From Nitrospirota bacterium (GTDB taxonomy: Bacteria > Nitrospirota > Nitrospiria > Nitrospirales > Nitrospiraceae): 64,000 bases of DNA. The notes under the pieces were generated by a model, which saw only the letters and a program-made list of their open reading frames with translations, had not been told where the DNA came from and searched no databases. The translations under genes were made by a program, and so were the position numbers. Positions within the stretch are counted from its first letter, which is position 1. Each line of letters opens with the position of its first letter. Shown here in pieces: positions 24,539-39,449 of this stretch. The stretch lies in the NCBI GenBank assembly GCA_016219645.1, contig JACRLR010000018.1:124001-188000 (forward strand), in the 5' to 3' direction.

Positions 24539-25741
24539 TCAGGCCGCGATTGCCTGTTTCGTTTCATCCAGATGTTTCTGGAGATAGGTCATAAAGGGTG
24601 TGCCCCCCGTTCCGACAGCGGTGGGGTTGCTCTCGTGGGCTTGATGTTGGCGATAAATGTAACTGTCGGCATAGCCGATATGGATTTGGCGAAATTGGGC
24701 TAAGAGATCGATGCAGGCACAATAGGCAGTCCAGAGATTGGGATTGTGAACTTTTCGATCGCGCACGTAGCCTGCGAGCACTGAACGGCCCCGACCATCG
24801 GTGGCCATTTCCAGGGCCTGCAGGAAAGCTCGGTGGCGCGGAGGCATGTAGTCGCGCATCTCTTGCAGATAGACGGTCAAGGGATCAGGGGCATGGGCGA
24901 TTCCAAGTCCAGCGTCGAGACAGGGGACAATCGAGCTTTGCGCGCCGGTCTCGCCTCGAAACTGTTGTGGTTGTCCGGCATAGGCTTCCACATCCTCGTA
25001 GGTGATTCCGTTCGGTAGGGTCGGGCTGTTCTTCCAACCGTGGATATAGGGCCGCACTCGGTTGTAGTAGACATAGGGATCGCAACGTTCTTTCATCCTG
25101 AGTAGCGAGTCTCGCATTGTCGTTTGGGCCGCTGACAGGGAGTTGAGCCCAACCAAGACTTCGTCCTCCTTGCCCTCAGCCGCACCATTCATTGCTCGAA
25201 GAAGTCCAGCCAGCCCTGGTCCCGCTTCCCGCTCGATCTGGATGTGGACCACGACAAACCACTCTTCATCCAAACCGCCGAGAAAATTTTGAAGCAGCAC
25301 AATGTTGTCGAGACGAATTGGTTGCGTCCGGTCGAGTCTCCGCCAGTTGTCGAGCGCATAGGACGCATAGGACAGGACAGGCGGGCGGCCAAGCTTCTGT
25401 GCCACTTCATGCCAGGGTCTCGCCAGTTGGGGCGGTAGGGTTGCAACCGGTTGGTCTGGCACTTCCCACACATAGGCATGCCCGGCAAACGAAAGGATCC
25501 GCATTGCGGCCCGATAGTCTTCTGTGCGCCATGAGGAAGGAATGGAAGGGAGCAGTTCTCGTTGCTCGCCGATGTACCGCCGGACCGTCCGAGCACTCAA
25601 TAGCTTCGGCAATTCATGCCCAAGGTGGTTGAGCGCAGCATAGTCCGGCAGGTTCTCACAGGGGTCTTCAGGGAGAAATCCCTGTTCGGCTGAAATCTCG
25701 TAATCGGAAAGCGAAAGAGGAAGGAAGGGGGGCGATTTCAT
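24539..25741 (-). CDS. Indoleamine 2,3-dioxygenase
   Basis: A 400-residue haem enzyme that opens the indole ring of tryptophan to give N-formylkynurenine. Family signatures in order: RPYIHGW, GETGAQSSIVPCLDAGLGI, YMPPRHRAFL, then FRQIH354, with His354 as the expected proximal haem ligand, and the C-terminal GTGGTPFM substrate-site loop. Length matches IDO rather than the shorter TDO. GGAGG precedes the ATG. It is divergent from an exported cyclase that resembles kynurenine formamidase, the next step. Substrate could differ from tryptophan; the family assignment is firm. Confidence 0.9.
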   Translation of the reverse strand: MKSPPFLPLSLSDYEISAEQGFLPEDPCENLPDYAALNHLGHELPKLLSARTVRRYIGEQRELLPSIPSSWRTEDYRAAMRILSFAGHAYVWEVPDQPVATLPPQLARPWHEVAQKLGRPPVLSYASYALDNWRRLDRTQPIRLDNIVLLQNFLGGLDEEWFVVVHIQIEREAGPGLAGLLRAMNGAAEGKEDEVLVGLNSLSAAQTTMRDSLLRMKERCDPYVYYNRVRPYIHGWKNSPTLPNGITYEDVEAYAGQPQQFRGETGAQSSIVPCLDAGLGIAHAPDPLTVYLQEMRDYMPPRHRAFLQALEMATDGRGRSVLAGYVRDRKVHNPNLWTAYCACIDLLAQFRQIHIGYADSYIYRQHQAHESNPTAVGTGGTPFMTYLQKHLDETKQAIAA

Positions 25742-25903
25742 AGAGGCCTCCGGTACTCAACCTCAGCGTCCGCTCACACTTTACCACACCGGAAACGAAT
25801 TCTGATCGATTCCCTGGTTAGAGAAACAACAGACTACCGTTTGCTTTCCTGCCTGGTGGACTGACAATATTTACCGGAGATTTGTGGAATGGAGGGGCAT
25901 GTT

Positions 25904-26773
25904 ATGTGTAAGCAGGTATCGAATCACTCAGGGATCTACTTGGGGCAACAGCTACTCGGCTTGGTTGTTGTGCTGTGCTTCCTGGCCGGCGCGGGGTGCA
26001 CTGCCGGTCATACCCGGCACGATCACCTTGCCTGGGAGCAGTCGCGGCTCATCGATCTCACCCATTCTTTCGGGGAAGCCACGATTGTCTGGCCGACTGA
26101 ACAGGACTTCCAGCTTGTCCTTCAGCAGGCGGGGGAAACAGCGGGAGGGTACTACTATGCTTCGAATCGATTGGAAATGGCCGAACATGGAGGCACCCAT
26201 ATCGATGCGCCCATTCACTTCTCCAAGGGTGGGCAGACGCTGGACCAGGTGCCGATCGAACGCTTGGTTGGAACCGCTGTCAAAATTGACGTCACAGCCC
26301 AATGTGCCGGTGATCGGGATTATCTCGTGACCATTCAGGATATTGAACGGTGGGAGGCAGTACATGGGCTGATACCGACTCGCGCAATCGTGCTGGTCGA
26401 TACGGGCTATGCCCGATACTGGCCGTCCCGGCAACAGTATCTCGGAACAGAACTGAGAGGGCCCGAAGGCGTCAGGGCGCTTCATTTCCCTGGCCTGCAT
26501 CCCGAAGCGGCAGCCTGGCTTGTGCGTGAACGGCAGGTCAAAGCAGTGGGAATCGACACAGCCTCGATCGACTATGGCCAGTCCACAAAGTTTGAAACCC
26601 ACGTCACGCTCCTCTCGCAGAACGTGCCGGTGTTCGAGAATCTGAGCGATCTACGAAATCTTCCTGATCAGGGATTCGACGTGATCGCACTGCCGATGAA
26701 AATTGCCCGCGGAACCGGCGGCCCGCTGCGAATCATTGCGGTGCTTCCAATATCCGTGAAGCGTCAATCGTGA
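25904..26773 (+). CDS. Cyclase-family metal hydrolase, kynurenine-formamidase-like, exported lipoprotein
   Basis: A 289-residue protein. The N-terminus has a hydrophobic stretch ending in LAGAGC, a lipobox, so it is probably anchored outside the inner membrane. The mature part has the cyclase/KynB metal motif HGGTHIDAPIHF, a second IDTASIDYGQS segment and a late EN strand. KynB hydrolyses N-formylkynurenine. GGAGGGG is 6 nt before ATG 25904, so the ATG at 25889, which contains that site, is rejected. The gene is divergent from the IDO gene. The export signal is odd for a partner of a cytoplasmic haem enzyme. Confidence 0.8.
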   Translation: MCKQVSNHSGIYLGQQLLGLVVVLCFLAGAGCTAGHTRHDHLAWEQSRLIDLTHSFGEATIVWPTEQDFQLVLQQAGETAGGYYYASNRLEMAEHGGTHIDAPIHFSKGGQTLDQVPIERLVGTAVKIDVTAQCAGDRDYLVTIQDIERWEAVHGLIPTRAIVLVDTGYARYWPSRQQYLGTELRGPEGVRALHFPGLHPEAAAWLVRERQVKAVGIDTASIDYGQSTKFETHVTLLSQNVPVFENLSDLRNLPDQGFDVIALPMKIARGTGGPLRIIAVLPISVKRQS

Positions 26774-26892: not shown

Positions 26893-28350
26893 TTAGAGGA
26901 TGGTCTTACTCACTTCACTTGAGGAGCAGCCTTCTGCCACGGAGTTATAGGCAGTCACCGAGAAATAATAGGTCGTCCCACTCTTGAGGGTCGAAAACGA
27001 ATAATTGGTGCTCAGACCCACATCGGTTGCCTGCTGATAGGAGTTCGGCGCCGCTCCATAGTACACTTTGTATCCCTTCACTGAAGGATCTGTGGCTGAG
27101 TTCCAGGTTAGCCTGACCTGGATCCCATTTGAAGGTGTCATGATTTCGGCGGACGTGAGTGCCCCTGTGCTTCCGCGTCCCCCTGCCGCAAGAACGGTCC
27201 CATCCGGCAGTAATGTGGCAGTATGGCTGGTCCGTGCGACAGTCAGGTCTCCTGCGGTGGTCCATTGTCCCGTCGTCGGATTATAGAGTTCGGCGGACGT
27301 GAGTGGCCCTGTGCTTCCGTGGCCCCCTGCGATCCAAACCGTTCCATTTGGCAGTGGCGTCGGCAGCAACGTGGCGGCATGCCCGGTCCGGGCGACAGTC
27401 AGGTCGCCGGTGACGGTCCATTGCCCTGTCGTCGGGTTGTAGAGTTCGGCGGAGGTGAGCAGCCCGGTGCTCCCGTGCCCTCCTACGACCAGTACGGTTC
27501 CATTGGGTAGTGGTGTCAGCAGAGGCGTGGCAGTATGCCCGGTCCGGGCAATAGTGATGTCGCCCGTGGTGGTCCATTGCCCCGTCGCTGGATTGTAGAG
27601 TTCGGTAGACGTGAGCAGCCCGGCGCTCCCAGACCCTCCCGTAACCAGTACAGTGCCATTCGACAGCAGCGTGGCAGTATGGCCAGTCCGCGCGCTGGTC
27701 AGGTCGCCTGTGGCGGTCCATTGCCCTGTCGCTGGATTGTAGAGCTCGGCGGAGGTGAGGAGCGCGGCGCTCTCAGAGCCTCCCGTAACCAACACCGTGC
27801 CGTTCGGCAACAGAGTGGCAGTATGGCCGGTCCTGGCGACAGTCAGGTTACCGGTGGCGGTCCATTGCCCTGTCGTCGGATTGTAGAGCTCGGCGGAGGT
27901 AAGGAGCCCGGTGCTCCCGGAGCCTCCCGTAACCAACACCGAACCGTTCGGCAGCAGGGTAGCAGTGTGGCTGGCCCGCGCGACGGTCAGGTTGTCAGTG
28001 GCGGCCCATTGTCCTGTCGTCGGATTGTAGAGCTCGGCGGAAGTGAGGGGCGTGGCGTTCCCAGACCCTCCGGTAACCAGTACGGTGCCATTCGACAGCA
28101 GCGTGGCAGTATGGTTGGCCCGCGCAGAGTTGAGTGTATTCGCCAAGGGCGAGCCACTAACGGTTGGGGAACTACAAGTTGAGGCCAGCGCCGGATCATG
28201 AGAAGAGCTAGAAGAACCTCCCCCCGAACAGGCCAGGAGATTTGTGAGAATCAAGGAGACAAGTCCCGCTACCATGGGCAGCCGTGCGGTCTCGTGCTTC
28301 CGTTGGTGGAGACTTTGATGTCCGCCCGCTTGAATGGTTGCCCTCAACAT
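26893..28350 (-). CDS. Kelch-repeat lipoprotein with C-terminal fibronectin type III domain
   Basis: A 485-residue protein. A hydrophobic segment ending LLACSGGGSSSSS is a lipobox with a Ser linker. About seven near-identical Kelch units of ~49-52 residues follow (each with HTATLL..GTVLVTGG and SAELYNPTTGQW), enough for a seven-blade beta-propeller. The last ~90 residues form an FN3 domain (VRLTWNSATDPSVKGYKVYYG). The DNA repeats are highly similar, suggesting recent duplication or gene conversion. The start is uncertain: the lipobox is ~40 residues into the longest frame and no Shine-Dalgarno is clear. Open frames on the plus strand here are antisense shadows. Confidence 0.85.
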   Translation of the reverse strand: MLRATIQAGGHQSLHQRKHETARLPMVAGLVSLILTNLLACSGGGSSSSSHDPALASTCSSPTVSGSPLANTLNSARANHTATLLSNGTVLVTGGSGNATPLTSAELYNPTTGQWAATDNLTVARASHTATLLPNGSVLVTGGSGSTGLLTSAELYNPTTGQWTATGNLTVARTGHTATLLPNGTVLVTGGSESAALLTSAELYNPATGQWTATGDLTSARTGHTATLLSNGTVLVTGGSGSAGLLTSTELYNPATGQWTTTGDITIARTGHTATPLLTPLPNGTVLVVGGHGSTGLLTSAELYNPTTGQWTVTGDLTVARTGHAATLLPTPLPNGTVWIAGGHGSTGPLTSAELYNPTTGQWTTAGDLTVARTSHTATLLPDGTVLAAGGRGSTGALTSAEIMTPSNGIQVRLTWNSATDPSVKGYKVYYGAAPNSYQQATDVGLSTNYSFSTLKSGTTYYFSVTAYNSVAEGCSSSEVSKTIL

Positions 28351-36849: not shown

Positions 36850-38118
<1,269 letters not shown>

Positions 38119-38158
38119 TTAGGCGTGAAACGTTAGGCGTAAGGGGTAAGGGGTATTA

Positions 38159-38192
38159 GAAAAAGGGGGACGGTTCATCCACCGCCCCCCTT
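38159..38192 (-). terminator. Terminator or attenuator between metK and ahcY
   Basis: On the minus strand, GGGGGGCGGT, a short loop, ACCGTCCCCC and a T run. The 10-bp stem has one G-U pair. ahcY lies beyond it, so ahcY is either read through or has its own promoter. A GGCGTAAGGGGT word run lies at 38117-38157. Confidence 0.75.
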
Positions 38193-38216
38193 CGGCTAGT
38201 TCGCACACAGTAGTGA

Positions 38217-39365
38217 TTACAGCCCTGCGTCTTTCCGCAAGAGTTTAGCCTTATCGGTCTTTTCCCAGGTAAACTCCGGTTCGTTCCGGCCAAAGTGCCC
38301 GTAGGAGGCGGTCTTTCTGAAGATCGGCCGGCGGAGCTTGAGGTAGTCGATGATGCCGCGCGGGGTCATGGGGAAGTGTTTCCGCACGAGCTTATCCAGA
38401 GTCTCGACCGCCACCTTCTCCGTTCCTTTTGTATCGACCAGCACTGAAACGGGATCTGCCACGCCGATCGCATAGGCGAGCTGGACTTCACATTTTTGCG
38501 CTAACCCGGCGGCGACGATGTTCTTTGCGATGTAGCGGGCCATGTACGACGCCGACCGGTCCACCTTTGTCGGATCCTTGCCGGAGAACGCGCCGCCTCC
38601 ATGGCTGCCGTGGCCTCCATAGGTATCGACGATGATCTTGCGGCCTGTCAACCCTGTGTCCCCCATCGGACCGCCGACCACGAAGCGGCCGGTGGGATTG
38701 ATGTGGTGTTTCACACTCGTTGGGTCGTAGAGCCCTTTCGGCATCACGGGCTTGATGACCTTCTCCATGATGTCGCGTTCGATCTGCTTGTTCGTCACGT
38801 CGGGGCTATGCTGCGTCGAGACAACGATCGTGTCGATCCGCACCGGTTTGCTGTCCTTGTACTCCACGGTCACTTGGGATTTTCCATCGGGACGGACCCA
38901 GGGCAGGATGTTCTTTTTCCGGACTTCTGCCAGCCGCCTGGTGAGTCGATGTGCGAGCACGATCGGCATCGGCATGAGCTCAGTCGTTTCATTGGTGGCA
39001 TAGCCGAACATCAACCCCTGGTCGCCGGCGCCGCCGGAATCCACGCCCATGGAGATATCGCCTGACTGCTGGTGAATCGCGGTCAGGACGGAACAGGTGT
39101 GGTAGTCGAATCCCCAGGCGGCGTCGCAATAGCCGACATCTTTGATGACCTCACGAATGATATCGGGAATCTCGACGTAGGCTTTGGTGGAGATTTCACC
39201 TGCCACGAAGGCGATTCCGGTGGTGAGAATCGTCTCGCAGGCCACCCGGGAATACTTGTCTTTGGCAATGATTGCGTCGAGGATTCCGTCGGAGATCTGG
39301 TCGGCGATTTTATCCGGATGTCCTTCTGTGACAGATTCAGATGTAAACAGATAGTTATGTCGCAT
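38217..39365 (-). CDS. metK: S-adenosylmethionine synthetase
   Basis: 382 residues from ATG 39365. It makes SAM from methionine and ATP. Signatures are [21 protein letters not shown], the [12 protein letters not shown] hexapeptide region and the [17 protein letters not shown] loop. A frame upstream to 39443 crosses the promoter and is rejected; AGAGGGG precedes the chosen ATG. SAM-cycle partner ahcY follows. Confidence 0.97.
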
Positions 39366-39421
39366 TGGCCCCTCTGGGTTCAGGTGATCGGTAAGCGGAC
39401 AAAAGGCCGAATCCGTGCGAT

Positions 39422-39449
39422 AGTATATGAATAGGTCCTCCATTGTCTA
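39422..39449 (-). promoter_or_regulatory. Promoter of metK
   Basis: On the minus strand TAGACA (39449-39444), a 16-bp spacer and TATACT (39427-39422). The leader is about 50 nt. No SAM or SAH riboswitch consensus was recognised in it. Confidence 0.6.

Follow-up and report, generated by a model that had tools for sequence, protein, structure and literature searches.

Indoleamine 2,3-dioxygenase (IDO) has mainly been studied as an immune enzyme of animals, and Nitrospira are globally important nitrite oxidizers. An IDO gene lying back to back with a gene for a kynurenine formamidase (KynB)-like protein in a Nitrospiraceae genome raises the question of what IDO does in this group and whether its neighbor takes part. 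The window is the whole stretch of DNA analyzed, 64,000 nucleotides of contig JACRLR010000018.1 (assembly GCA_016219645.1, forward-strand positions 124,001–188,000). The features discussed are as follows, with the support for each in brackets.

24539..25741, minus strand: IDO, 400 amino acids (PF01231, active-site table, AF2 model)
25742..25903, no strand: divergent intergenic region, 162 bases (alignment with five close relatives)
25904..26773, plus strand, listed open reading frame from 25889: PF04199 cyclase/KynB-type metallo-hydrolase, probable lipoprotein (PF04199, KynB residues, lipobox)
36850..39443, minus strand: S-adenosylhomocysteine hydrolase (sahH) and S-adenosylmethionine synthetase (metK) genes, given as context (Pfam, synteny)

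A preliminary description of this DNA had proposed an IDO and a divergent neighbor with the cyclase/KynB metal motif, and both open reading frames (ORFs) were confirmed. The IDO ORF matches PF01231 over profile positions 2–412 of 412 with 297.6 bits (cut-off 26; E 1.8e-88), and the protein matched human IDO1 and IDO2 structures by phmmer at E 1e-40 to 1e-56. No signal segment was seen in it. Structure prediction agreed with the assignment: the AF2 model (pLDDT 80, pTM 0.83) superimposes on human IDO2 with Z 37.9 over 365 residues and on IDO1 with Z 36.2 over 356 residues, within an overall range of 35–38. The protein was aligned with human IDO1 (6cxu, an S167H mutant) and IDO2, with 90 sequences from Nitrospirota, and with five IDOs encoded on plasmids: one from Sphingobium, two from Methylocystis, and two from haloarchaea. 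Its haem ligand His354, distal His166, Arg230, and Thr378 correspond to human positions 346, 167, 231, and 379; human numbering is used below. Tyr126, Phe163, Arg231, and His346 are invariant across the whole alignment. In the Thr379 loop, GTG is kept in every row but two, which have a gap there. Loss of haem-ligand or substrate residues, named beforehand as evidence against the proposal, was sought and not seen: among the 90 Nitrospirota IDOs, the haem ligand, Arg231, the Thr379/GTGG loop, Phe163, and Tyr126 are invariant, with one loop gap. The predicted fold, haem ligand, Arg231, Thr379, GTGG loop, and full-length match are shared with human IDO1 and IDO2 and with haloarchaeal IDO. Pairwise dN/dS values of 0.06–0.12 for IDO and 0.12–0.19 for the cyclase show that both genes are under purifying selection. 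Invariant catalytic residues in the 90 Nitrospirota IDOs and dN/dS near 0.1 argue for an active enzyme.

The pocket differs from that of human IDO1. Position 167 is His in 90/90 Nitrospirota IDOs and in 5/5 other prokaryotic IDOs compared; the distal Ser167 of human IDO1 is not kept, and this Ser does not define the family, as IDO2 has Thr. Human IDO1 Ser167 corresponds to His76 of tryptophan 2,3-dioxygenase (TDO) (PMC5758539), so the Nitrospirota distal His is equivalent to human TDO His76, although TDO (PF03301) is a separate family. In the Nitrospirota IDOs, Tyr occupies positions 129, 226, and 227 (with one exception at 227), and Glu occupies 262. As Glu262 and Tyr129/226/227 make the pocket unlike that of human IDO1, the enzyme may prefer a different indole. 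Some bacterial IDO branches were almost inactive on tryptophan in published assays (PMC4217691), so the Nitrospira IDO may likewise have a different substrate. Two haloarchaeal IDOs with a distal His adjoin kynU, an alpha/beta hydrolase gene, and trpB, so a distal His is compatible with a genuine kynurenine route. The IDO of a Methylocystis heyeri plasmid (locus L187, 6001–7077) has the same pocket set of His167, Glu262, and Tyr129/226/227; it neighbors epimerase, aminotransferase, and cystathionine gamma-synthase-like enzyme genes, which may form a biosynthetic set.

We regard as quite improbable the reading that IDO has given up tryptophan or indole breakdown and, as a haem protein, serves some other purpose with another substrate or a small ligand, much like the IDO-derived myoglobins of abalone. 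It would fit the invariant or nearly invariant changes at 129, 226, 227, and 262 and the slow IDO branches known from bacteria, as well as the known myoglobins that resemble IDO (PMC4217691, PMC4191572). Six genomes that have a TDO–kynureninase pair and retain IDO (below) would fit it as well. However, the tryptophan-binding Arg231, Thr379, and GTGG loop are fully conserved, and the haloarchaeal IDOs that share the distal His sit in kynurenine clusters.

The cyclase ORF matches PF04199 with 150 bits (E 5e-44). Its start is probably five codons downstream of 25889, at ATG 25904, with GGAGGGG upstream. The metal motif HxGTHxDxPxH reads HGGTHIDAPIH. Active-site residues of KynB (PMC4243253, PMC6117287) were mapped by motif and spacing, using the residues from PMC4243253. 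All nine (Trp20, His50, His54, Asp56, His60, Ser149, Asp151, His161, and Glu173) are present, as Trp68, His100, His104, Asp106, His110, Ser226, Asp228, His238, and Glu250 in ORF numbering. They are invariant in 58 Nitrospiraceae homologs, with KynB spacing kept except for the Trp, which is off by two; the KynB-like active site proposed earlier thus holds across these homologs. In contrast, the score against the KynB equivalog TIGR03035 (EC 3.5.1.9) is 84.1 bits, well under the cut-off of 223.05. The protein is also longer than KynB (289 versus about 210 amino acids), with an N-terminal signal segment and predicted export.

Isatin hydrolase, also in PF04199, was considered as the identity of the cyclase and rejected. 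It is the closest characterized full-length PDB match (E 1e-28), yet isatin hydrolases have Gln or Ala in place of KynB Glu173, within the signature GLQC/GLAS (PMC6117287). That motif is absent: the site has Glu-Asn and reads VFEN, GLEN, or ALEN in 55/58 homologs and another xxEN in 3/58. Structure prediction of the cyclase gave pLDDT 52. A third cyclase type, with shorter ORFs of about 230–250 amino acids and 72–110 bits, lies far from the two clades described below. It is the second PF04199 match in G008, G021, G027, G031, G053, G055, G085, G087, G102, G104, G120, G121, and G132.

The lipobox noted in the preliminary description was upheld as a sequence feature. LAGAGC follows a strongly hydrophobic stretch whose mean Kyte-Doolittle value across 11 residues is 3.3, its Gly-Cys is invariant in 19 aligned homologs, and the lipobox pattern occurs in nearly all clade A sequences. 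Cyclase homologs have a hydrophobic N-terminal stretch, with the lipobox Cys in the IDO-linked clade and a lipobox or a cleavable-looking signal in other clades. Judged by this signal, the cyclase is probably exported and lipid-anchored. The preliminary description had left a choice between separate compartments for the two proteins and a substrate other than formylkynurenine; we favor different compartments, as predicted from the N termini.

Whether the two genes form a pair was assessed across relatives. A tree of 58 cyclases has two well-separated clades, assigned by identity to the window cyclase (A, 61% or more; B, 53% or less). Clade A occurs in 65 genomes, all of genera g1, g15, and g16, and clade B in 53. 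Of the genomes with both IDO and a clade A cyclase, 39/55 have the two no more than 6 kb apart, against 0/34 for clade B; contig breaks may conceal some links. Genomes of g1 and g15, and one of g16, have the two genes divergent. In 29 g16 genomes they are convergent, and the cyclase lies on the opposite flank of IDO, still within about 5 kb. Presence of IDO and clade A is also associated in the three genera (counts 55, 30, 10, and 23; Fisher p 0.0009, uncorrected for kinship). Exceptions are frequent: 30/85 IDO genomes of these genera have no clade A cyclase, and 10 genomes have clade A and no IDO. Fourteen g1 genomes, several of them nearly complete, have IDO and no cyclase of any kind, and three g15 genomes (G046, G048, and G051) have the cyclase and no IDO. 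In G136 a decayed cyclase lies next to an intact IDO, and the G101 cyclase contains stops. In Nitrospira defluvii (G017), about 1 Mb separates IDO from a cyclase that belongs to the other clade. The pair is thus conserved and not obligate. What the preliminary description called paired genes are frequent neighbors in three genera, but they are often apart, and one may decay while the other is intact. The clade A linkage and the association in presence hint at a partnership tighter than optional.

A truncated kynurenine route over two compartments would give the pair a joint function. IDO would act inside the cell, N-formylkynurenine would exit, and the lipoprotein cyclase would deformylate it to kynurenine and formate. 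We consider this unlikely, and give no better chance to its corollary that kynurenine and formate are released for signaling, detoxification, or exchange, independently of the TDO–kynureninase route. The invariant KynB residues, including Glu173, with KynB spacing, the proximity of clade A to IDO in two gene arrangements, and the conserved stretches in the divergent 162-base region speak for such a route. Against it stand the 30 and 10 exceptions within the same three genera, the low TIGR03035 score, the distance in N. defluvii, and the fact that no exporter was identified.

The two genes may instead be functionally unrelated and near each other by history, since gene order in Nitrospiraceae would be slow to change; this is possible, if on balance doubtful, and is compatible with the reading of IDO itself that we prefer below. 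Unrelated neighbors (sahH, metK, a radical SAM gene, and succinyl-CoA synthetase-type genes) keep their order across the same genera, and the cyclases of G046 and G048 stand at the same locus without IDO. History alone accounts less well for a cyclase on opposite sides of IDO in g1 and g15 versus most g16 genomes, still close by, or for the association of clade A and IDO in presence.

The surrounding DNA adds some context. The intergenic region has conserved stretches beside both starts in five close relatives. Promoter and terminator scans at the locus gave nothing above chance, with no sigma-70-type promoter match in 25742..25903. The sahH and metK genes are co-directional neighbors of IDO conserved in several genera. 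In eight loci (L070, L071, L072, L074, L076, L077, L082, and L092), the gene immediately upstream of the IDO ORF is sahH, 108–343 bases away, so co-transcription is possible. On its other side, the cyclase is adjoined by a Kelch-repeat protein (window 26893–28350) whose tandem repeats closely resemble one another and which ends in a fibronectin type III part. In N. defluvii-type genomes (g14), IDO stands in what we take, from reading the sequence, to be a housekeeping run with ispE-, prs-, rplY-, and pth-like genes; this neighborhood is no clue to function.

IDO had been called uncommon in bacteria, which does not apply to this group. PF01231 is matched in 118/175 genomes of the family, a few with fragments only. 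Short fragments in the otherwise good genomes G068, G069, G081, and G131 point to ongoing loss of the gene in some lineages. Among 395 genomes drawn from the phylum, IDO occurs in 11/169 genera, all of one order, Nitrospirales. Widespread in the family and, in this draw, confined to one order, IDO has been passed down within Nitrospirales and was not recently imported. The closest named records with IDO are Nitrospira metagenome-assembled genomes, and N. moscoviensis and N. defluvii also carry it. Among 22 genera, 21 have cyclases and nine have IDO. No paper on Nitrospira IDO was found in the literature searched. An exclusive tie of IDO to nitrite oxidoreductase was rejected, as a related beta-subunit model matches most genomes, including several that lack IDO (G133, G157, G161, G046, and G048).

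Pathway genes were searched in the window's own 3.65-Mb Nitrospiraceae genome, which has one IDO and one PF04199 gene. The preliminary description saw no kynureninase gene nearby, and the same is true genome-wide: kynureninase had no match in this genome at E 0.001, so the usual pathway cannot pass kynurenine. Nor does the genome have TDO or a second PF04199 gene. The genome has trpB (638 bits) and nadA (308 bits), indicating standard routes to tryptophan and NAD. Kynureninase exceeds the family cut-off in 0/175 genomes, and TDO occurs in only 6/175 relatives. In these six (G132, at L202 5708–7908; G073; G105; G107; G108; and G109), the TDO gene is directly followed by a kynureninase-like gene of about 150 bits, below the cut-off. 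IDO is kept in 6/6. A review states that bacteria have TDO or IDO, exclusive of each other (PMC4191572), and these six genomes conflict with that statement. Retention of IDO in genomes with a TDO–kynureninase pair at another place suggests a separate role, in which the Nitrospira IDO is not simply tryptophan-catabolic.

The reading preferred here, to which we give an even chance, is an indole-ring dioxygenase active in the cytoplasm, a route that breaks off early, and an optional exported KynB-type hydrolase. The pyrrole ring that IDO opens would be that of L-tryptophan or of a closely related indole, and the product N-formylkynurenine or its analog. With the pathway halted for want of kynureninase, the role of IDO would not be NAD synthesis or carbon supply; it may be the removal or tuning of tryptophan or indole, or the release of the ring-opened product. 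The divergent neighbor would be a lipid-anchored, exported KynB-type metallo-amidase that may act on product leaving the cell, with flux through this second step not obligatory. In these nitrite oxidizers, which make tryptophan themselves, IDO is inherited and conserved. The roles presumed for PF04199 would also broaden were the family to include an exported enzyme in which the KynB residues are complete.
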